The position numbers and the translations under genes were made by a program. Below are positions 1-22,704 of a stretch of 39,503 bases of DNA, one piece after another. The notes beneath the pieces are model-generated. The model was not told where the DNA came from. It ran no database searches and saw nothing but the letters and a program-made list of their open reading frames with translations. The stretch is from contig WGCQ01000206.1 of NCBI GenBank assembly GCA_015493765.1, positions 1 to 39,503 of the forward strand, given 5' to 3'. This stretch comes from Deltaproteobacteria bacterium. GTDB taxonomy: Bacteria; Myxococcota_A; UBA9042; DTJE01; S145-11. Each line of letters begins with the position of its first letter. Position 1 is the stretch's first letter.

Positions 1-795
1 AAATTGTTCATGATCCACCAGTCCCTGGGTGAGGATGCCAAGATCTTTGCACCGGATGAGATACCGGAACCATCCACCTTGTACAAGCGCCTGACACAAA
101 ACCCCGAGGATATGGAAGAGGAGGGTTTTGAAACCAGGATCCGGCAAGAGTACCTGGAAATAAAGGCGGCGTGTCCCCAGCAGGTAAAGCAGGCTGAGGC
201 CCTGTTTCCCAGGGTAAAGACCGCGGCAGAGGGGCAAAAAGACGAGTTGTACGTGTTCAGGCGCAAGGGACTGGGTATGTTCGTGCTGCACGTGCCCGAT
301 ACCATGGCAGGCAGACCCGAGGTCAAAGAGATCACATTCAAACAAGGCGTGGATGCAATCAAGGCAAAATGCAGTGAGCCGGACCTGGGCAAGGGGCCTG
401 GCTTTGCCCGGGCCTACGTAAAGGCCCTGAACTTTTCACCGATACGCAAGGGCGGGGGACGTTCCGAAAACTCCGTGGAACAAAGGGCGTTCAACAATTT
501 GACCACGGCAAAAGATCTCCTGCGGGACCGTTTTTCCCAGGAAGAACGGGATTTCATCCAGACCCTGATCAGGGACCTGCGAGAGTATTTCACCCTGCCC
601 AAGTCCACTCTGCGCACATTGCAGGAATACGATTTGAACCCGGATTTACCGGATTTGGACGACAGGGTCGATGGGTTCAAACGGGCCCTGCACCGGTTGA
701 TGGGCATGCTGGGCACGGACTACCTGGACAGACTAAAGCCAAGGATCAAAAATCTCGCGGACGAGGTTGTGGTGGCCGTGGAGCACAGGCGATAA
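1..795 (+). CDS. C-terminal part of a large protein, probably SNF2-type helicase-related (5' end outside the window)
   Basis: Frame is open from base 1 (AAA TTG TTC ATG...) to the stop at 795. The segment 'DEIPEPSTLYKRLTQNPEDMEEEGFETRIRQEYLEIK...PRVKTAAEGQKDELYVFRRKGLGMFVLHV' resembles the post-helicase C-terminal region of defence-island SNF2 helicases (family memory, not searched). Confidence 0.5.
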   Translation, partial: KLFMIHQSLGEDAKIFAPDEIPEPSTLYKRLTQNPEDMEEEGFETRIRQEYLEIKAACPQQVKQAEALFPRVKTAAEGQKDELYVFRRKGLGMFVLHVPDTMAGRPEVKEITFKQGVDAIKAKCSEPDLGKGPGFARAYVKALNFSPIRKGGGRSENSVEQRAFNNLTTAKDLLRDRFSQEERDFIQTLIRDLREYFTLPKSTLRTLQEYDLNPDLPDLDDRVDGFKRALHRLMGMLGTDYLDRLKPRIKNLADEVVVAVEHRR

Positions 796-864
796 TTCAG
801 AGCCAGGGTCAAAGGTGGACATCGTACTCGAATTACCAGCCTGATTTGGTATTCTGCCAATAAT

Positions 865-893
865 TTGACTATCTGACGGATCCACGGTATTTT
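865..893 (+). promoter_or_regulatory. Putative sigma70-type promoter (TTGACT-N17-TATTTT) for the 909 gene
   Basis: TTGACT at 865-870, 17-nt spacer, TATTTT at 888-893; gene starts at 909. Confidence 0.45.
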
Positions 894-908
894 TTTCGTG
901 GAGATGCT

Positions 909-1610
909 ATGAAATACCTGGTGTTTTTTGTCATCACTGCCTGGATGGTGCCTGTTTACGCGTACAGCACGTTCGTTTTGGATGCGACCGATACGAATAC
1001 GGACAGCAAGGCCAGGTTCGTGGTCAAGACCGCGTCGGACAAGGACACGGGGATCACGTATTGCTCGGAATTGCTGTACGTTGCCGGTGAACAGGACAAA
1101 AACGGGAAATATCACTATTCCAGGACGACAAACCGGATGTACGGGGAGTTCGGCAGGGGGGGGCGGCTGTTGAAATACAAGAGGTGGTTGCCCGGTGCAG
1201 GCGGTTCGATCATGTACATGGTGTTTCGTTACGGCAGCAGGATAAGGCAGAGGGTCGAGGAGGTCATAGGCGGCAATGCCAAGGTGCGCACGATTACGAG
1301 GGGCCGTACGATCCACGTGGTGGACCCGCAGGGAGTGGGCTGGATGCTGATACTGCTGCGTTACAGGGGCATAAAATCATTCAAGTGTATTAATCCCGTG
1401 AGCGGTGAGGTGGGGACAGAAGTCATCACATCGCAGGAATCCGAGGTGATCTTACCCCAGGCCGGACAGGTCAAGGTCAAGGTCCTGCACTTCGGCGGTG
1501 CATGCGGCGAGGCGGACGCCTTTTTGGACAGGCACGGGCACCTGATTGGCGGCCGCGTCGGCAAATACACCCTGGAAAAACACAAGGGCCGGGTCAATCT
1601 AAAAAAGTAA
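909..1610 (+). CDS. Secreted protein of unknown function
   Basis: ORF of 233 aa with an N-terminal signal peptide (MKYLVFFVITAWMVPVYA). Preceded by a plausible promoter at 865-893. Confidence 0.7.
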   Translation: MKYLVFFVITAWMVPVYAYSTFVLDATDTNTDSKARFVVKTASDKDTGITYCSELLYVAGEQDKNGKYHYSRTTNRMYGEFGRGGRLLKYKRWLPGAGGSIMYMVFRYGSRIRQRVEEVIGGNAKVRTITRGRTIHVVDPQGVGWMLILLRYRGIKSFKCINPVSGEVGTEVITSQESEVILPQAGQVKVKVLHFGGACGEADAFLDRHGHLIGGRVGKYTLEKHKGRVNLKK

Positions 1611-1631
1611 CCGTGGCCGTTGACCGTGTCA

Positions 1632-1855
1632 GTTGGCCGAGTCCGTGTGGGGCCGGATCCTGCCGGCCTTTCCGTGTCCGTGGCAGTGTGCTCCCGGTTG
1701 CAACGGAAGCCTTCCCGAAGGCCCACGGGGCCGTCCCGCGCAGCCGCAGGCTGCGACCCGACGCCCGATGCCAGAGGCCCGAGGCCGAGTCCGTGACCGT
1801 TGGCCGAGTCCGTATGGGGCCGGATCCTGCCGGCCTATCCGTGTCCGTGGCAGTG
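1632..1855. repeat. Two direct copies of a 57-bp repeat (1632-1688 and 1799-1855) in NNCCGT-rich intergenic DNA
   Basis: gttggccgagtccgt[g/a]tggggccggatcctgccggcct[t/a]tccgtgtccgtggcagtg; 55 of 57 positions identical by eye. Confidence 0.85.
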
Positions 1856-1885
1856 GCCGTGTAATTCCCGGTGGTGACGGGAGTC

Positions 1886-1953
1886 GTGGAGCGCAAGCGG
1901 CCTCGAGGGTATTGAAAAGTGCCTCCCTGGGATCGCTGGCTTCCAGCCGGCAT
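1886..1953. repeat. Dispersed ~68-bp REP-like block, copy A ('GWKPAIPG' block)
   Basis: gtggagcgcaagcggcctcgagggtattgaaaagtgcctccctgggatcgctggcttccagccggcatt; closely matches 16378-16444. GCTGGCTTCCAGCCGGC is internally palindromic. Confidence 0.8.
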
Positions 1954-2121
1954 TCTTAAATGGCTTTAAAATCAATATGTTACAAAATGCTCGAGATCTC
2001 AGATTTGCTTCGAAACCAATCAAATCAACATCCTCGTCTCGCCGGCAATAATATCCTGGTTTCTCAACAAGTTACATTGCATTACCCACAAGATCGGGTC
2101 ACGGAGCCTCCCCTACTGGCC

Positions 2122-2138
2122 GATATGCAACGCATATC
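2122..2138. promoter_or_regulatory. Inverted repeat GATATGC-AAC-GCATATC, candidate operator
   Basis: Perfect 7-bp arms with 3-nt spacer; the same arms and spacing recur at 18184-18200. Confidence 0.5.
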
Positions 2139-2170
2139 AATAACATCTCGATAAAATTCGCAAATAATCG

Positions 2171-2199
2171 CAGACAAATCTATCCGAATTTGATATAAT
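2171..2199 (+). promoter_or_regulatory. Putative sigma70-type promoter for the 2352-7502 operon (CAGACA-N17-TATAAT)
   Basis: CAGACA 2171-2176, 17-nt spacer, consensus TATAAT 2194-2199, in an AT-rich intergenic region. Confidence 0.5.
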
Positions 2200-2351
2200 A
2201 AAATTTGTTGTGTTACGCGCAAAATGGCACGATAATTGCAAGCGAAGGGGCTTGATGCTGAAGGCCTCACGACATACCAGGGCCGGAAATGCGGGACCAA
2301 CAATGACTATAAACGGCATGTGGGATTGAACTTTAAAGACTGAGGGTGCGG

Positions 2352-3254
2352 ATGGAAGAGATGTTCAATAAAGACACTTCAGGTGATGACAAAAAACAGG
2401 ATATTGCAGGCACGGCAAGGGACGTGAAAAAACTTGCCGCCCGGTTCAAGGCATTTGCCGATGACCTGGCAGGCCTGGCAAAGAGGGTCGAAAAGGGCGG
2501 ATACAACCCGTTCGTGGCGGCCGCGGACCTGCACAAGGTCATGCGCAAGGCGCCCAAGGGCGATGAACTGGCCGATGCCGTTGCGCGGGCAAACGGTTTG
2601 CTGGAGCAGTTTGCAGAAATCATCGAGCAACAGCAGTCCAGGCAACGGCTGGCCATTGTGAACGAACTGGCGCAAGGGATGGCGGAAATCGGCCTGGGTG
2701 TAACCGGCCAGATACCCATGCTAAAGGCAGGGCCTTTTACCCTGGTGTTCGATTTCGGGGAAAAGGCCTCGGTAAAGGTGTTCCTGGGTCCCAAGATCTA
2801 TGCCCTGGGCAAGGTCCCCATGGACGTGGACAAGGTAGTGACCCTGGTCAAACAAAAATACCAGGCCTTTTTCGTGGACGATTTCGACGTGCAAGGTTTT
2901 GTTCGGGACCTGCTGGCCGCCTACAACGCCATATTGAAACAGGACAAACTGGAGCCTGGCAGCCGCGTAAAGATATCGCAGGTGATGCTGAAATACGTGC
3001 TGATGAAACAGCGAAAGGCCTTTTTCGTGGACCCGAGGCGTGAAAACTTTGCGTCCGTGGGGCGTATGGAATTCGCCTGCATGCTGTACCGGGCTTCAAG
3101 CATGCGCCGCGTGGATGCATGGGAGATGCGCATGGACGTGGCGGCCATGGGGGACACGAAAGACCCGCTGGACCACTTGTGGGTGCCGGGTGGCATGAAC
3201 GGGCAGGGTGTGAACTATACAACCATGCGATTTGTAAGGAGGGGGAATGAGTGA
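2352..3254 (+). CDS. Uncharacterised protein, first gene of the DUF2791/helicase operon
   Basis: ORF of ~300 aa with an alpha-helical N-terminus; ATG at 2352 with GAGG upstream (ORF track begins at GTG 2346). Overlaps the next gene by 8 nt. Confidence 0.75.
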   Translation: MEEMFNKDTSGDDKKQDIAGTARDVKKLAARFKAFADDLAGLAKRVEKGGYNPFVAAADLHKVMRKAPKGDELADAVARANGLLEQFAEIIEQQQSRQRLAIVNELAQGMAEIGLGVTGQIPMLKAGPFTLVFDFGEKASVKVFLGPKIYALGKVPMDVDKVVTLVKQKYQAFFVDDFDVQGFVRDLLAAYNAILKQDKLEPGSRVKISQVMLKYVLMKQRKAFFVDPRRENFASVGRMEFACMLYRASSMRRVDAWEMRMDVAAMGDTKDPLDHLWVPGGMNGQGVNYTTMRFVRRGNE

Positions 3255-4509
3255 TTTGACCATGACCAGGGCCAGGAGGATCATCGAGGTCCTCGGTGCA
3301 TCGGGTACGCCGCCGGAATGGGGTGTACAGTTCTTTACATCCGGGATCGACCCGTATTTGCGGGTGATCGAGGAGGACTACCTGTCCACGTTCATCAAGG
3401 ACGGCGGCTCCGCATTCAAGATGGTCGTGGGAAACTACGGCGGCGGCAAGACGCATTTTTTGTACAATATCAGGCAACTGGCGTGGCAGCACAACTACCT
3501 GGTCGCCTACTGTCCCCTGACACACGAGGAATCGCCCTTTCACCAACTGGAAAAGGTGTTTCGGTCCGTGGTGGTGAACCTGATGTATCCAATGGACCCG
3601 GACGAACTGTTGTCAGGCAGCGAAAAGGGGATCGAGGCATTCATGCGCATGTATGTGTCCAGGATACAGGAGGATGCTCAGGCAGCGGGCGGCGACCCGG
3701 AGGAGGTCCAGGAGCGGGCGTATGCAATCATCCGGGACTCCACCACGAACATCGAGAGCGCAAACTTCGCCAGGGCGGTGAGGGCCGCGATGAACGCCTT
3801 GCTGGAAGACCGGGACGACGATTTTGAAAACGTGATCCAGTATTTGAAGGTGGACGGCTACAGCAGCCGAATCCACCGGGAATACGGAATTTTGCAAGGG
3901 ATCGGACGCAGCCAGGCGTTCACCATGCTGAGGTCGCTCAACCAGTGGATTCGCAACCTTAACTACAGCGGCCTGGTGGTCCTGTTCGACGAGGCCGAAA
4001 TGGTGGTCAGCCTGAACCGCAAGCAAAAACAGGCGGTGCTGGCGAACCTGCGCGAACTGGTGGACCAGTGCGGCCAGGCCACGCTGAAGAACACCATGGT
4101 CTTTTACGCGGTGCCGAACGAAAACTTCCTGGAGGGCAGCACGCACGTTTACGAGGCCCTCAGGCAGCGGGTGGCCACCGTGTTTCATTACCTGAATCCC
4201 ACGGGCGTAAAGATACGGCTGGACAGCCTGATAGAGGAGCCCAAGCAGTTCCTGCAGGACGTGGGATTCAAGTTGATCTCGGTGTATGAAACGGCCTACG
4301 GCATCCAGGTGGACGAGGTGACACGCCAGCGGATCGTCGATCCCCTGTCGGATGCGGCACTTGAGATGCGTTTCGGGGAATCCGGGTATATGAGGCCGTT
4401 TGTGCAGGGGCTTATTTCGGTGCTGCACATGATGCGCCGCGACCCGAACACGCAACTGGATGCGGGAAGTATCCGCAAACTCGTGCCAGGGGGTTATGAT
4501 GCTGAGTAA
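3247..4509 (+). CDS. BrxC/BrxD-like (DUF2791) P-loop ATPase, first copy
   Basis: Walker A 'VVGNYGGGKTHFLYNIRQLAW', then 'CPLTHEESPFHQLEKVFRSVVVNL', Walker B 'GLVVLFDEAEMV'. Strong SD (aaggaggggga) before ATG. Confidence 0.8.
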   Translation: MSDLTMTRARRIIEVLGASGTPPEWGVQFFTSGIDPYLRVIEEDYLSTFIKDGGSAFKMVVGNYGGGKTHFLYNIRQLAWQHNYLVAYCPLTHEESPFHQLEKVFRSVVVNLMYPMDPDELLSGSEKGIEAFMRMYVSRIQEDAQAAGGDPEEVQERAYAIIRDSTTNIESANFARAVRAAMNALLEDRDDDFENVIQYLKVDGYSSRIHREYGILQGIGRSQAFTMLRSLNQWIRNLNYSGLVVLFDEAEMVVSLNRKQKQAVLANLRELVDQCGQATLKNTMVFYAVPNENFLEGSTHVYEALRQRVATVFHYLNPTGVKIRLDSLIEEPKQFLQDVGFKLISVYETAYGIQVDEVTRQRIVDPLSDAALEMRFGESGYMRPFVQGLISVLHMMRRDPNTQLDAGSIRKLVPGGYDAE

Positions 4510-5899
4510 AGGCGACCTGGTCAAACATCGGAAGTTCGGTATAGGCACGGTGCTTGGTTTTCGTCACAGGCGTGCCTATGCCCGGGTGAGTTTCGGCAGG
4601 TTCAGGCTGTGGATACGGGCACACGAGCTGGAGCGCATAGGGGATGGTATAAAACTGGTGGGGCCGGAGGGCGAACGGGCAAACGCCCGCAATCTCGCGC
4701 CTGCGACGAGGCCTTTGAAGGCGAACCCCACCCTCAGTTTCAGCCGCAAGTCGGACATGCAAAAGATGCAGATACTGGAGTCCCTGCGCACCGGTCTGGT
4801 GCCGAAATCCGCGATCGAACAGTGGACGTTCGGCCGGGATGATGAGGTGCGCGAGGTCAGGCATTGGCTGCATGACCTGGCGGAGGGCGCAATCCTGATC
4901 GAAGGCGGCTATGGCATGGGCAAGAGCCACTTGCTGGCCTACCTGGAGCATATCGCGTGGCACGAGGGTTATGCCGTGGCATTTACCGGGTATGACCCGG
5001 CCGAGGCGACCGCTGCATTCCCGAAGCGGTTTTACCGCAACCTCGTGTCCACGCTGGTTGTGCCGCACGCAGGCAGCGCCATGAACTTCCGCGAGTTCAT
5101 GCACGAGTTGCAAAACCGCGGCGGCGCGGATTTTTTCAAGGGACATACGTACCTGGGGGCGTTCATGCAGGCCATGGAGGCCGGGGAACTGGACGAGGCG
5201 GACTGGGAATGGCTGGAGGGCCGCGATACGTACAGCAAGCGGTTCGGTTTTTTATACGACCACAGGACCGCGGCGAACATCTACTGCAACCTGCTGTCCG
5301 CCCTGTCCGTGGCAATGGTGGAATTCATGGGCCTGAAGGGCCTGCTGATCCTGGTGGACGAGGCCGAGGTGATCCGTGCCCAGCGTTATCAATACCAGGT
5401 GGAAGGGGCATTGAACCTGATGCGGGGGCTCGCCATGGTATCCAACGATGACCCGGTTTTCCTGGAGGAAAAGGTGGTGCGCATCGAAGGGGCCTACAAG
5501 GGCAAGGAAACGGGGTTGATGTACTCCGGGTTTATGCCGGGTGTGCGCTATATTCACCAGGTTCCGACGTACATGAAGATTGCGTACGCGCTGACGCCCA
5601 CCGAGGTCCCCGGATTTCACAAGATGCGCCAGCAGATGCCCGTAATACACCTTTCGTCCCTGAAACGGTCCGATATCGAGGCCCTGTTCCGGCAACTGGT
5701 CAACACGTACAAGGAGGTGTACGACCTGGTACTGGACAAGCAGTGGCAAAACCGGCTGCTGCTGGAGGCACTGGACCTGTTTGACCCGGGTGTACACCCG
5801 TTAAGGCTACTGGTGAAATCCCTGGTGGAGGCCATGGACATCATGCGATTCTATCCGGAAACCGGCCTGGAAGACATATTCGAGTCCGCACATGCGTAA
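4499..5899 (+). CDS. BrxC/BrxD-like (DUF2791) P-loop ATPase, second copy, with an N-terminal small beta (Tudor/CarD-like) domain
   Basis: N-terminus 'LSKGDLVKHRKFGIGTVLGFRHRRAYARVSFGRFRLWI'; Walker A 'IEGGYGMGKSHLLAYLEHIAWHEGYAVAF'; Walker B 'GLLILVDEAEVI'. Start 4496 or 4499, overlapping the previous stop. Confidence 0.75.
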   Translation: MLSKGDLVKHRKFGIGTVLGFRHRRAYARVSFGRFRLWIRAHELERIGDGIKLVGPEGERANARNLAPATRPLKANPTLSFSRKSDMQKMQILESLRTGLVPKSAIEQWTFGRDDEVREVRHWLHDLAEGAILIEGGYGMGKSHLLAYLEHIAWHEGYAVAFTGYDPAEATAAFPKRFYRNLVSTLVVPHAGSAMNFREFMHELQNRGGADFFKGHTYLGAFMQAMEAGELDEADWEWLEGRDTYSKRFGFLYDHRTAANIYCNLLSALSVAMVEFMGLKGLLILVDEAEVIRAQRYQYQVEGALNLMRGLAMVSNDDPVFLEEKVVRIEGAYKGKETGLMYSGFMPGVRYIHQVPTYMKIAYALTPTEVPGFHKMRQQMPVIHLSSLKRSDIEALFRQLVNTYKEVYDLVLDKQWQNRLLLEALDLFDPGVHPLRLLVKSLVEAMDIMRFYPETGLEDIFESAHA

Positions 5900-7502
5900 T
5901 CTGCTGCCCAGGACATGGCCGGTCTTCTTTTTCCGGTTTGGCAAGCCCACCAGGATCCAGGAACTGGCGATCCCGGTGCTCATGGAGGGCAGGGATGCCC
6001 TGCTGGTGTCGCCGGCTGCCACGGGCAAGACCGAGGCGGCGCTGGCCCCGCTGGTGGAACGCTACTGCATGGACGACCCCGGGAAGATGTCCATTATTTA
6101 CGTGGCGCCTACCAGGGCACTGGTGAATAATATTTTCAGTCGTTTCAACGAGTTATTACGGGAGGCAGGCCTGCGCATGGCCATAAAGACCGGCGACAGC
6201 CCTGGCGTATCCGAAAAGCGGCCGCCCGATATACTGGTGACCACGCCCGAGTCCCTGGATTCCATGCTGGGCCGCAAGCGCAATTTGCTGCGCAATGTAA
6301 AGGCAGTGGTCCTGGACGAGATCCACCTGCTGGACAACTCGTACAGGGGCGACCAGTTGATCGTGCTGATGCGACGCCTCAGGGCCACGGGACTGGCATT
6401 CCACCTGGTAGCCATGTCCGCCACCGTGCCTGACCCCAAGGGCATTGCCAGCCGCTATTTTGACTCGCCCCCCCGGATACTGATCAACCAGCAGGTCAGG
6501 CCCATTGCCCTGGAGGTCACGAACGACATCCCGCAGACCGTGGAAAAACTGAAACAGGAGGGCCTGTTCAAGGTGGTGTGGTTTTGCAATTCCAGGCGCA
6601 TGGTGGAAACCGTTGCAACCACGCTGAAAGAGGGCTTATGGCGCAGGGACCGGGTATTCGTGCACCATGCCAGCCTGCCAAAGGCCAAGCGCCTGGAGGT
6701 GGAAAGCGCGTTGCAGCAGTTGCAAACCGGGCTTTGCGTGGCCACCACCACGCTGGAACTGGGCATTGACATCGGTGACGTGGACGCGGTGGTGCTGCAA
6801 GGGCCGCCGCTGGACGTGTCGTCCTACACCCAGCGCACGGGCCGTGGATGCCGGCGCAAGGCAGGGATGCTGGCCATCGGCATCGCCGAAAACGAGGCCG
6901 AGTCCGAGGTGTTTCACGAATTGAATCGCATGGCCAATCACGGGGCCATGGCAGGCGAGCCCTACATGGCCGACCCATCGGTCGCGGTGCAGCAGACCTT
7001 TTCGATCCTGTTCGAGCACCCCCAGGGGGTCAGGCGGTCCGAATTGAAGCGCCTGCTGCGCGGCATTGTGGACGCAGCGGATTACGATGCCATAATCGAA
7101 CACCTGGACAACGAGGGCTGGGTACAGCCAGGTCCCATGGGCAGGGTCATGGCAACCACGAAACTCATGGATTTTGCCCAGCGTGGCCGAATCCACTCCA
7201 ATATACCGGGTTTCGGGACCTGGGAACTGGTGGACATCAAGACGTCACGGGCCGTGGGCAAGATCGATGCAATGGCCGGTGTGGGCATGATCATCACGGT
7301 GGGCGGCGTCATGTGGAAGGTCGTGTCCATGGACACCAGGCTGTGGCGTTTGTTTGTCAGCCGCGTGACAAAGGGCGAAATCGTGACCGCATTCAAGTTC
7401 AGGCCGGGATTCGGTGCATTTTACAGTTACCTGCCCGAAATCGTCAGGCAGCACCTGGTGGAAAAGATGGAAAACCCGTTCCTGGAGGAACCATCCGGTT
7501 GA
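5892..7502 (+). CDS. DEAD/DEAH-box superfamily II helicase, Lhr/BrxHI-like
   Basis: Motif I 'LLVSPAATGKTEAAL', Ia 'YVAPTRALVNN', II 'VVLDEIHLL', III 'MSATVPDP', V 'ATTTLELGIDIGDVDAVV', VI 'QRTGRGCRR'. Overlaps the upstream gene by 8 nt. Confidence 0.85.
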   Translation: MRNLLPRTWPVFFFRFGKPTRIQELAIPVLMEGRDALLVSPAATGKTEAALAPLVERYCMDDPGKMSIIYVAPTRALVNNIFSRFNELLREAGLRMAIKTGDSPGVSEKRPPDILVTTPESLDSMLGRKRNLLRNVKAVVLDEIHLLDNSYRGDQLIVLMRRLRATGLAFHLVAMSATVPDPKGIASRYFDSPPRILINQQVRPIALEVTNDIPQTVEKLKQEGLFKVVWFCNSRRMVETVATTLKEGLWRRDRVFVHHASLPKAKRLEVESALQQLQTGLCVATTTLELGIDIGDVDAVVLQGPPLDVSSYTQRTGRGCRRKAGMLAIGIAENEAESEVFHELNRMANHGAMAGEPYMADPSVAVQQTFSILFEHPQGVRRSELKRLLRGIVDAADYDAIIEHLDNEGWVQPGPMGRVMATTKLMDFAQRGRIHSNIPGFGTWELVDIKTSRAVGKIDAMAGVGMIITVGGVMWKVVSMDTRLWRLFVSRVTKGEIVTAFKFRPGFGAFYSYLPEIVRQHLVEKMENPFLEEPSG

Positions 7503-8703: not shown

Positions 8704-10812
8704 TTACAATTCGCACGGGTCCACCACGGGCGTCTGGCCCGATGCAAGACCTTTCATGAAGTGCTGGTAGGTGCATGCCGCTGTTGCGCTTTCAAATGCC
8801 GCGAAGTGCCCGTAGTCGCAAAACTGCATTGCGGCCGCGGTGTAATGCCCCTGGATATTCGCCTTGATCGGGGGCTGGGTACCTGTGATGCCGCTCAATT
8901 TCATGCCAGGGGATACCTCACAAGGCGGTGCCACCACAGGGAGACCGGCACCTGCGATCATGGTCTCGGCCACTGACGGCGGGGAATCGATGTCTTTCAT
9001 GCCCTGGGTCATGAATATATCCCTGGGATGGCCGTCCTGGTGCCAGGTTGCAAAGTAATACGGCGTATAGGAATTCGGGTCCGAGACATCGATCACCTGC
9101 TGGGCAATGGTCAATATCGGGTGAAACTGGTCGATCATGTCCTGGGGTATGTTGAATATGATGGATATGGCCTGCTTTGCATCCAGGTCCGTGCCGCCCA
9201 CGCTGATTTTGCGGTCCAGCAATGCATTTGTCAGTCCCGCGCCTGCGCCGGACAACACGCCTCCCACAAAGCGGTCCTCCACACCGAACAACATGGCGCC
9301 TGAAATACCGCCCTGTGAATGGCCCCAGAATAACACCTTGTTTTTATTGAATTTAAAATCCCTGGTGTCCAGGTTGCCTGCCCGAATCATGCGCAAAATG
9401 CTGATTTCATCGGCAATGGACTGGCGCTGGACCGTTCGCCCCGCGGTGGGATTGAACACGTTGAAACTGTACAGGTCCACCTCGTCGGATGACAGGGGCG
9501 GGTCCACGCGTGTGCCGTGCAGGGGTTCGTCTATGCCGATGCACGCGATCCCGTCCTGGGACAACAGTTTGGCCTCGTTGTACGGTCCGGAGCGCAAAAA
9601 CGTGTGGTAATCACCACCAGTGCCGTGCATGATGACTGCGATCGGCAGGTTCGATGAATTCACACCCTTCGGAATAGTCAATGCAAAGCGCATCGTTTCC
9701 ATGTGGTCCACCACCGGACGGCCCTTGGTATCGAATTCGAATCCACCGCCGGTATTTTTGTATGGCGGCTTTCCGTGCAAGAAATACGGGGCCTTGTAAT
9801 GCCCCTCGTAGCGTACGTAATAGTCCGTTGAATTGGATCGCGTAATATCCGTGACCACTGGGGCCGGGCTGCTGTCGATATAATCCCTGATCGCCAGCAA
9901 TTCGGCCCTGGGGTTGGTAATGGTGAATACCGTGCCCACGACCAGGTCATCCGCGGCTATGCCCTTGTCCGCCAGGTAGTTGTGCAGCGGTTGCAGGGCA
10001 TTTACAAACCGCGCAGGGCACGCGGCCTTGCCCTGCAGGCACCGCGAGAACCAGGGATTTACGGACAGGGCATTGCCGGACTGGTCATGCAACGCCTTTG
10101 TGATATACAGGGCATAGGTCTCGTCCTCGTGCAGCACGATACCCCACACCGGTTTTACGGCCAGCGTATGGGCAGGCCAGAACCTGGTCTTGTCCTCCTG
10201 GAATTTCCACAGCATGGGGACTTTTTCACCGTAATGGTGCCCCTTTGACACGTCCACCATGACCACACTCGAGTTATCGGCAGGTATGTAGCCCTTTGGA
10301 AATCCTGAAACATCGATTGGTGCGCTGAAGGTCACGTACACGGTCTGGGCGGGGCTGAATCCGTGGATGTGGTCGGTTATTTCGGCCAGGTAGGCCTCGA
10401 TCAAGGGCTTGGCATCCGGGTTTGGAAACAGGGACAAGTCGATTTTTCCGGAAGCGGGGTCCTTGAGGTAGTCACCGGGATAAGGCAGGCCGCCCCAGTC
10501 CTTGGTGTGCGGGTCGAAAAAGGCATAGGTCCCGGTGGGTGGGGGGAGGGCGGTGTCCGTGGCCGTGTCCGTGTCCGTGTCCGTGTCCGTGTCCGTGTCC
10601 GTGGCCGTGTCCGTGGCGGTATCCGTGGCCGTGGCCGTGTCCGTGGCGGTATCCGTGGCCGTGGCCGTGGCCGTGGCGGTATCCGTGGCCGTGGCCGTGT
10701 CAGTCACAGTGTCGGTGACATTCACGGTGTCGGGCCCTGGCAATGCAAATTCGGTCCCACCGCATCCGCCAAAAATCATCAAAAAGACTACAAAAACAAC
10801 ATATTTCCTCAT
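8704..10812 (-). CDS. Lipoprotein with a Thr-Asp/Thr-Ala linker and an alpha/beta-hydrolase domain
   Basis: Lipobox 'IFGGCGG', long (TD/TA)n repeat, nucleophile elbow 'FWGHSQGGISGAML' (GxSxG-type), 'AVIMHGTGGD'. Confidence 0.8.
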   Translation of the reverse strand: MRKYVVFVVFLMIFGGCGGTEFALPGPDTVNVTDTVTDTATATDTATATATATDTATDTATATDTATDTATDTDTDTDTDTDTATDTALPPPTGTYAFFDPHTKDWGGLPYPGDYLKDPASGKIDLSLFPNPDAKPLIEAYLAEITDHIHGFSPAQTVYVTFSAPIDVSGFPKGYIPADNSSVVMVDVSKGHHYGEKVPMLWKFQEDKTRFWPAHTLAVKPVWGIVLHEDETYALYITKALHDQSGNALSVNPWFSRCLQGKAACPARFVNALQPLHNYLADKGIAADDLVVGTVFTITNPRAELLAIRDYIDSSPAPVVTDITRSNSTDYYVRYEGHYKAPYFLHGKPPYKNTGGGFEFDTKGRPVVDHMETMRFALTIPKGVNSSNLPIAVIMHGTGGDYHTFLRSGPYNEAKLLSQDGIACIGIDEPLHGTRVDPPLSSDEVDLYSFNVFNPTAGRTVQRQSIADEISILRMIRAGNLDTRDFKFNKNKVLFWGHSQGGISGAMLFGVEDRFVGGVLSGAGAGLTNALLDRKISVGGTDLDAKQAISIIFNIPQDMIDQFHPILTIAQQVIDVSDPNSYTPYYFATWHQDGHPRDIFMTQGMKDIDSPPSVAETMIAGAGLPVVAPPCEVSPGMKLSGITGTQPPIKANIQGHYTAAAMQFCDYGHFAAFESATAACTYQHFMKGLASGQTPVVDPCEL
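10552..10720 (-). repeat. Hexanucleotide repeat (ACGGAC/ACGGCC) encoding a (Thr-Asp/Thr-Ala)n linker
   Basis: Tandem gtccgt/ggccgt units on the + strand; minus-strand translation TDTVTDTATATDTA...TDTDTDTDTDTATDTA. Confidence 0.9.
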
Positions 10813-18406: not shown

Positions 18407-21781
<3,375 letters not shown>

Positions 21782-22636: not shown

Positions 22637-22665
22637 TTGACAACCGATCTCGAAATCCATATAAT
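22637..22665 (+). promoter_or_regulatory. Perfect-consensus sigma70 promoter (TTGACA-N17-TATAAT)
   Basis: TTGACA 22637-22642, 17-nt spacer, TATAAT 22660-22665; SD aaggag then ATG at 22705. Confidence 0.85.
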
Positions 22666-22704
22666 CCATTGCAGGTTATCCGCAGTTTTATTAAGGAGAG
22701 CAGG

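Follow-up and report, generated by a model that had tools for sequence, protein, structure and literature searches.

Introduction

Two described systems stand closest to the locus reported here. Shango, which was shown to be anti-phage (PMC10250203), consists of a TerB-like protein (SngA), an ATPase (SngB) and a helicase (SngC). In BREX type 2 (Pgl), a BrxD ATPase neighbours the helicase BrxHI, which it has been proposed to load or activate (PMC12839542). In this study, we describe a cassette of four genes, A, B, C and D, in a 39,503-nt stretch of DNA from a Deltaproteobacteria bacterium (the window), which is the entire contig WGCQ01000206.1 (C206) of a 3.57-Mb genome. The cassette shares with Shango an adaptor-like first gene, a BrxD-like ATPase and an Lhr-like helicase in the same order, with matches of B to the SngB model and of D to the SngC model. 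However, two ATPase paralogues instead of one precede the helicase, the second of them bearing a Tudor barrel; A belongs to another family (TerB families were matched by 0 of 69 A proteins, with no fold match in the PDB); and the B and D clades are separate from SngB and SngC. With BREX type 2 it has in common a BrxD-like ATPase neighbouring a BrxHI-like helicase (B to BrxD, 2e-37 in NCBIfam; D to BrxHI, 4e-71), but the ATPase is duplicated and A is new. Moreover, the NCBIfam cut-off for BrxD (350 bits) is not reached by B (129 bits) or C (53 bits), and PglX, PglZ, PglW and BrxC were found neither among the scanned window genes nor as conserved neighbours at 80 loci, the leftward search ending at C107, a contig of the same genome that overlaps the window start. 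An initial annotation of this DNA, which had seen no PglX, PglZ or TerB-like partner, was right on this point among the scanned window genes, and the leftward extension that it had proposed, made by joining C107, revealed no standard complete BREX type 2 locus. The cassette thus lacks what defines BREX type 2 and Shango.

Two further comparisons bear on single components. Helicase D shares the SF2 core with the Lhr helicases, and the best PDB match of its family is Lhr (5v9x); the window protein has only 536 residues, to be compared with the Lhr-like group that lacks Domain 4 (PMC8301817), and we did not find in that work a description of a fixed operon of D with two AAA+ partners. The BREX-Related (DUF499) systems also combine an AAA+ ATPase with a helicase, and Tudor domains occur in their helicases; those systems are centred on DUF499, a methyltransferase and an SNF2 helicase, whereas the cassette has no methyltransferase and carries the Tudor domain on an ATPase (PMC12839542). 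Parts of the cassette belong to known superfamilies, and no description of the A-B-C-D quartet was found in the open-licence literature.

Composition of the cassette

The four open reading frames, which come from a home-made gene caller and some of whose start codons will be wrong, overlap by 8 nt (A/B), 11-14 nt (B/C, by choice of the C start) and 8 nt (C/D), in agreement with the initial annotation, which had read them as one operon encoding an unrecognisable protein, two divergent DUF2791 ATPases and an Lhr-like helicase. These assignments withstood profile searches. Both B and C match PF10923 (BrxC_BrxD; E=3.8e-46 and E=5e-19, respectively), a family matched by all 65 C proteins, and both carry Walker A and Walker B motifs, which makes them ORC/Cdc6-type AAA+ ATPases of the BrxC/BrxD family. 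In B the motifs are GGGKTH (residues 65-70) and FDE (247-249), invariant among 28 homologues, and in C they are G139xGK142 and DE287-288, invariant among 65 homologues. In a phylogenetic tree of 79 ATPases, B forms one clade (support 87/78) and C another (97/93), both separate from BrxD and SngB; the fact that each is a single clade indicates that the duplication producing B and C predates the spread of the system.

The structural model of C (predicted local distance difference test, pLDDT, 90.4) has a core that matches ORC, the BREX ATPase BrxC (9zll), TnsC and RuvBL in the PDB; ORC, BrxC and TnsC are all DNA-bound or DNA-loading AAA+ proteins. The N-terminus of C is predicted to form a Tudor/SH3-like barrel with strands at residues 7-10, 14-22, 27-31, 36-40 and 44-48. 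Its signature, H-x-x-[YF]-G-x-G, is present in at least 50 of the 65 C proteins, bacterial and archaeal, and the match of the barrel to the Pfam model PcrA_UvrD_tudor is weak (0.0049, under the cut-off). At loci L113, L119 and L122 (Methanosarcina and other Euryarchaeota), the frame that contains C extends to about 870-1030 residues, the ATPase being preceded by a long N-terminal stretch that is uncharacterised.

With its DEAD (1e-35) and Helicase_C (2e-15) domains in Pfam and its closest kinship to Lhr (5v9x, 1e-66), D is an Lhr-type SF2 helicase. Its catalytic (DExH) motifs are invariant among homologues, and the PADLOC models that it matches are BrxHI (4.1e-71) and SngC (2.2e-57). Among 39 helicases, D forms one clade (100/100) separate from BrxHI and SngC.

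A is a new protein family and the hallmark of the cassette. The window protein has no significant match to any Pfam, NCBIfam or PADLOC model, and no Pfam or PADLOC family recurs consistently among 69 members. An AlphaFold model made from these 69 sequences (pLDDT 90.8) predicts a helical hairpin (residues 10-112), a small beta domain of five strands (117-156) and a winged-helix-like part (about 200-297). Neither the PDB nor a set of viral models contains a Foldseek match to this model at E<=0.001, the top sub-threshold PDB matches being ORC1 (best E 0.19) and, lower, Stn1 and Cdt1. A is slightly basic towards its C-terminus (median charge +4 over the last 100 residues). Strong conservation mostly concerns structural residues, and few polar ones are conserved, which fits an adaptor role. 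We also considered A as a TerB protein or a nuclease and rejected both, as there is neither a sequence or fold match nor a set of conserved catalytic residues.

Occurrence and gene order

The cassette is widely distributed. When named genomes were scanned with a B profile, 80 loci came up, spread over about 25 bacterial and archaeal phyla, though the names of metagenome-assembled genomes among them may be outdated. The bacteria include Myxococcota, Desulfobacterota, Nitrospinota, Poribacteria, Brocadia, Atribacterota, Acidobacteriota, Chloroflexota, Gemmatimonadota, WOR-3, Zixibacteria and KSB1, and the archaea include ANME-1/2, Methanosarcina, Methanoperedens and a Lokiarchaeote. Four nearly identical archaeal loci (L106, L107, L110 and L116) might be taken for a recent transfer between orders; we did not count them as such, and they are probably ANME-1 genomes under outdated names. 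With a single A sequence as query, 34 of 185 genomes gave a homologue, that of the window included.

By profile searches, A-B-C-D lie on one strand and in that order at almost all loci. Where the contig leaves room, A precedes B at 68 of 71 loci, C follows at 70 of 70 and D at 50 of 60, and the retention of this order across many phyla is more than chance would give. The co-occurrence of the homologues in other genomes, on which the initial annotation had made its proposal depend, is thereby established. No other gene was found to be conserved alongside the four across phyla, and this, together with the order being kept almost everywhere, means that the cassette is a complete unit and not half of something larger.

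Some genomes hold the genes apart. Of 8 genomes in which no D adjoins the other genes, 6 encode the helicase elsewhere (E<1e-170). Three genomes have B-C alone at the locus; each of them has a single copy of A elsewhere, and one of them also has D elsewhere. The dispersed genes stand among metabolic genes: B-C between what we take from their sequences to be rpe and selA, and A directly after presumed hexulose-phosphate synthase/isomerase genes in both genomes represented by L160 and L161, two of those in which A is unlinked from B-C. The dispersed D adjoins a gene that we read as dnaE.

The unit of four genes, recurrent across about 25 phyla among which are methanogenic and methane-oxidising archaea, appears to be unnamed, and there is neither a family model nor a fold match for its hallmark protein. 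Moreover, the cassette links the poorly understood BrxD-BrxHI and SngB-SngC defence modules, whose origin it could show, to a set kept core-like in several lineages, and by this link the loader-helicase idea becomes testable outside defence.

A possible loader-helicase machine

The sequences establish the composition of the cassette, its conserved linkage or co-occurrence, its intact catalytic motifs and the relationship of its ATPases and helicase to BrxD-BrxHI and SngB-SngC; how it may load, where it may dock, what its substrate may be and what it may serve are inferred. In the model that we favour, and on whose correctness we would take an even bet, A-D are the four subunits of a complete machine for DNA surveillance that is driven by ATP and acts by AAA+-assisted loading of an Lhr-type helicase. 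The anciently duplicated ORC/Cdc6-like ATPases B and C would form an assembly on DNA that loads or activates D, a 3'-5' helicase of Lhr type. A would be a non-enzymatic adaptor whose winged-helix-like end touches DNA and whose helical hairpin holds the complex together. The Tudor barrel of C might serve as the dock of the complex, on RNA polymerase or on some other nucleoprotein, as the Tudor domain does in PcrA/UvrD and Mfd. PcrA, whose Tudor domain binds RNA polymerase, is also a suppressor of R-loops (PMC8318588). Lacking a nuclease, the complex would use ATP for unwinding or stripping where nucleic acid is stalled or foreign. Archaeal Lhr prefers replication forks (PMC7437997).

Several observations speak against this model in its full form. 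The Tudor barrel is absent from C in one bacterial group, and a search at E<1e-40 gave no D in the two Desulfofervidaceae genomes represented by L160 and L161, although both have A, B and C. Neither the helicase nor the barrel is thus strictly needed everywhere. In addition, the C-terminal part of A reads as a winged helix from predicted secondary structure and weak fold matches.

Defence or genome maintenance

The evidence on the role of the cassette conflicts, and we see its purpose as split about evenly between defence and maintenance. The cassette could be an anti-phage or anti-plasmid defence of the Shango/BREX-2 type, in which the AAA+ pair would load the helicase on invading DNA and block replication, a reading whose chances we put a little short of even. 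The initial annotation had proposed a defence-type cassette, and this reading is favoured by the kinship of B, C and D to BrxD/BrxHI and SngB/SngC and by a plasmid copy behind BREX-2. On Aulosira laxa plasmid3 (AP018310.1, 18893-24287; L138), a divergent A-B-C-D, whose C protein has no Tudor barrel, lies directly behind the BREX-2 genes PglZ-BrxD-BrxHI and is possibly a BREX accessory version. Defence is also favoured by a copy near an AbiE pair on a Desulfomonile plasmid, by the HKD+SNF2 helicase upstream of the window copy and by a distribution that is patchy between families, with 5 true matches in 113 Methanosarcinaceae and 7 of 17 genomes in an ANME-2 family.

What does not sit well with defence is the resident-like behaviour of the cassette in other lineages. 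In the sister family, A is near-universal (12 of 13 genomes, one copy each), and the operon adjoins the genes of a pseudouridine synthase (RluD), a Lon-like protease and NAD kinase in conserved synteny. Between genomes of this family, B is 70% identical, as conserved as its housekeeping neighbours (65-66% for RluD and Lon, 51% for NAD kinase), and A, C and D are 51-57% identical. The dispersal of A and D among metabolic genes in other lineages weighs in the same direction. The enrichment in defence islands that the initial annotation had proposed to score was not strong: among 148 immediate neighbours, counted without a matched control, no PADLOC family occurred in more than 4 members. A phage collection gave no match to the cassette, and on plasmids A turned up only twice.

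These fixed, syntenic and dispersed occurrences look like those of a resident function. The cassette might therefore be considered as a resident genome-maintenance machine acting in transcription-replication conflicts, on R-loops or in repair, an ancestral relative of the defence pairs that is now core in several lineages; we regard this as a serious candidate, if one that stays somewhat under an even chance. Besides the sister family, with its single copy, its kept housekeeping neighbourhood and its conserved B, it is favoured by dispersal without loss, by the presence of A in 5 of 5 genomes of Desulfofervidaceae (the family of genome G510) and by Tudor and Lhr domains being known from repair and RNA polymerase contact. 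However, many complete relatives are without the cassette (with an A profile, 66 of the 377 phylum genomes were positive), from which it follows that it is not essential in general, and plasmid copies exist, one of them adjoining BREX-2. More tentatively still, bacteria and archaea may have in common a hitherto unrecognised maintenance machine made up of a duplicated loader of ORC/Cdc6 type that docks through its Tudor barrel, a new adaptor family and a helicase of Lhr type; the ATPase-helicase pairs found in BREX-2 and Shango would then derive from its kin.

The upstream SNF2 gene

Contig C107 shares an exact 151-nt overlap with the start of the window, and no contig overlap was found beyond it. 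The joined frame has 1023 residues, its start still open, with an HKD-like motif, SNF2 and Helicase_C domains in Pfam and matches to the PADLOC models DrmD and 'HKD+Snf2', so that the SNF2 helicase that the initial annotation had seen ending at 795 is indeed one; the fragment in the window by itself has no Pfam match. The gene is thus of a defence type. We rejected it as a component of the system: a homologue adjoins the cassette at 0 of 33 other loci and is present in only 1 of 52 relatives. The suggestion that a larger BREX-like or restriction system begins with this helicase and has the cassette as its right half, which the defence-type character of the SNF2 gene and the methylase gene preceding its homologue in G002 might favour, is very improbable and already largely refuted, since besides this lack of linkage (51 of 52 relatives have no homologue) a secreted-protein gene and about 740 nt intervene in the window and the cassette is self-contained at other loci. 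At L150 (68-6987 of contig C83 in G002, same order), an Eco57I-like methylase is followed by the homologous HKD+SNF2 helicase in what resembles a two-gene restriction-type system.

Other features of the window

The features of the locus are collected in Table 1. The promoter that the initial annotation had placed ahead of A is, by consensus only, the top sigma-70-like match in the first 8 kb (9 such sites against 3.9 expected). The sigma-54-like site is 127 nt upstream of A and 25 nt downstream of the sigma-70-like one; as a conserved regulator it was rejected, the exact site occurring in the window only and upstream of no other A gene.

Table 1. Genes, domain and candidate promoters at the cassette locus (window coordinates)
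Feature	Position	Strand	Size	Description
Gene A	2352-3254	+	300 aa	No recognised family
Gene B	3247-4509	+	420 aa	BrxD-like ORC/Cdc6-type AAA+ ATPase, first paralogue
Gene C	4496-5899	+	466-467 aa (start 4496 or 4499)	BrxD-like AAA+ ATPase, second paralogue
Tudor/SH3-like barrel, N-terminus of C	4499-4642	+	Residues 1-48	Five predicted strands
Gene D	5892-7502	+	536 aa	Lhr/BrxHI-type SF2 DNA helicase
Sigma-70-like promoter candidate, extended -10	2171-2199	+		10/12 consensus positions, consensus match only
Sigma-54-like promoter candidate, TGGCACGATAATTGCA	2225-2240	+		Exact consensus match
HKD(PLD)+SNF2 helicase, C-terminal part	1-795	+		Neighbour outside the system; continues on contig C107

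The gap upstream of the cassette also contains two 65-nt direct repeats (1624-1688 and 1791-1855), which are 94% identical and 167 nt apart, with no third copy in the window. The remaining window appears chromosomal, with genes for DNA gyrase B (18729-21197), kinases, peptidases and a cation transporter. Within a minus-strand gene (8704-10812), a tandem array of 6- and 30-nt GTGTCC-like units (10553-10701) codes for a Thr/Asp/Ala-rich stretch downstream of a lipoprotein-like signal. Finally, a perfect sigma-70 consensus (TTGACA-17-TATAAT), for which the chance expectation is none, is located at 22637-22665, just upstream of a gene at 22669.

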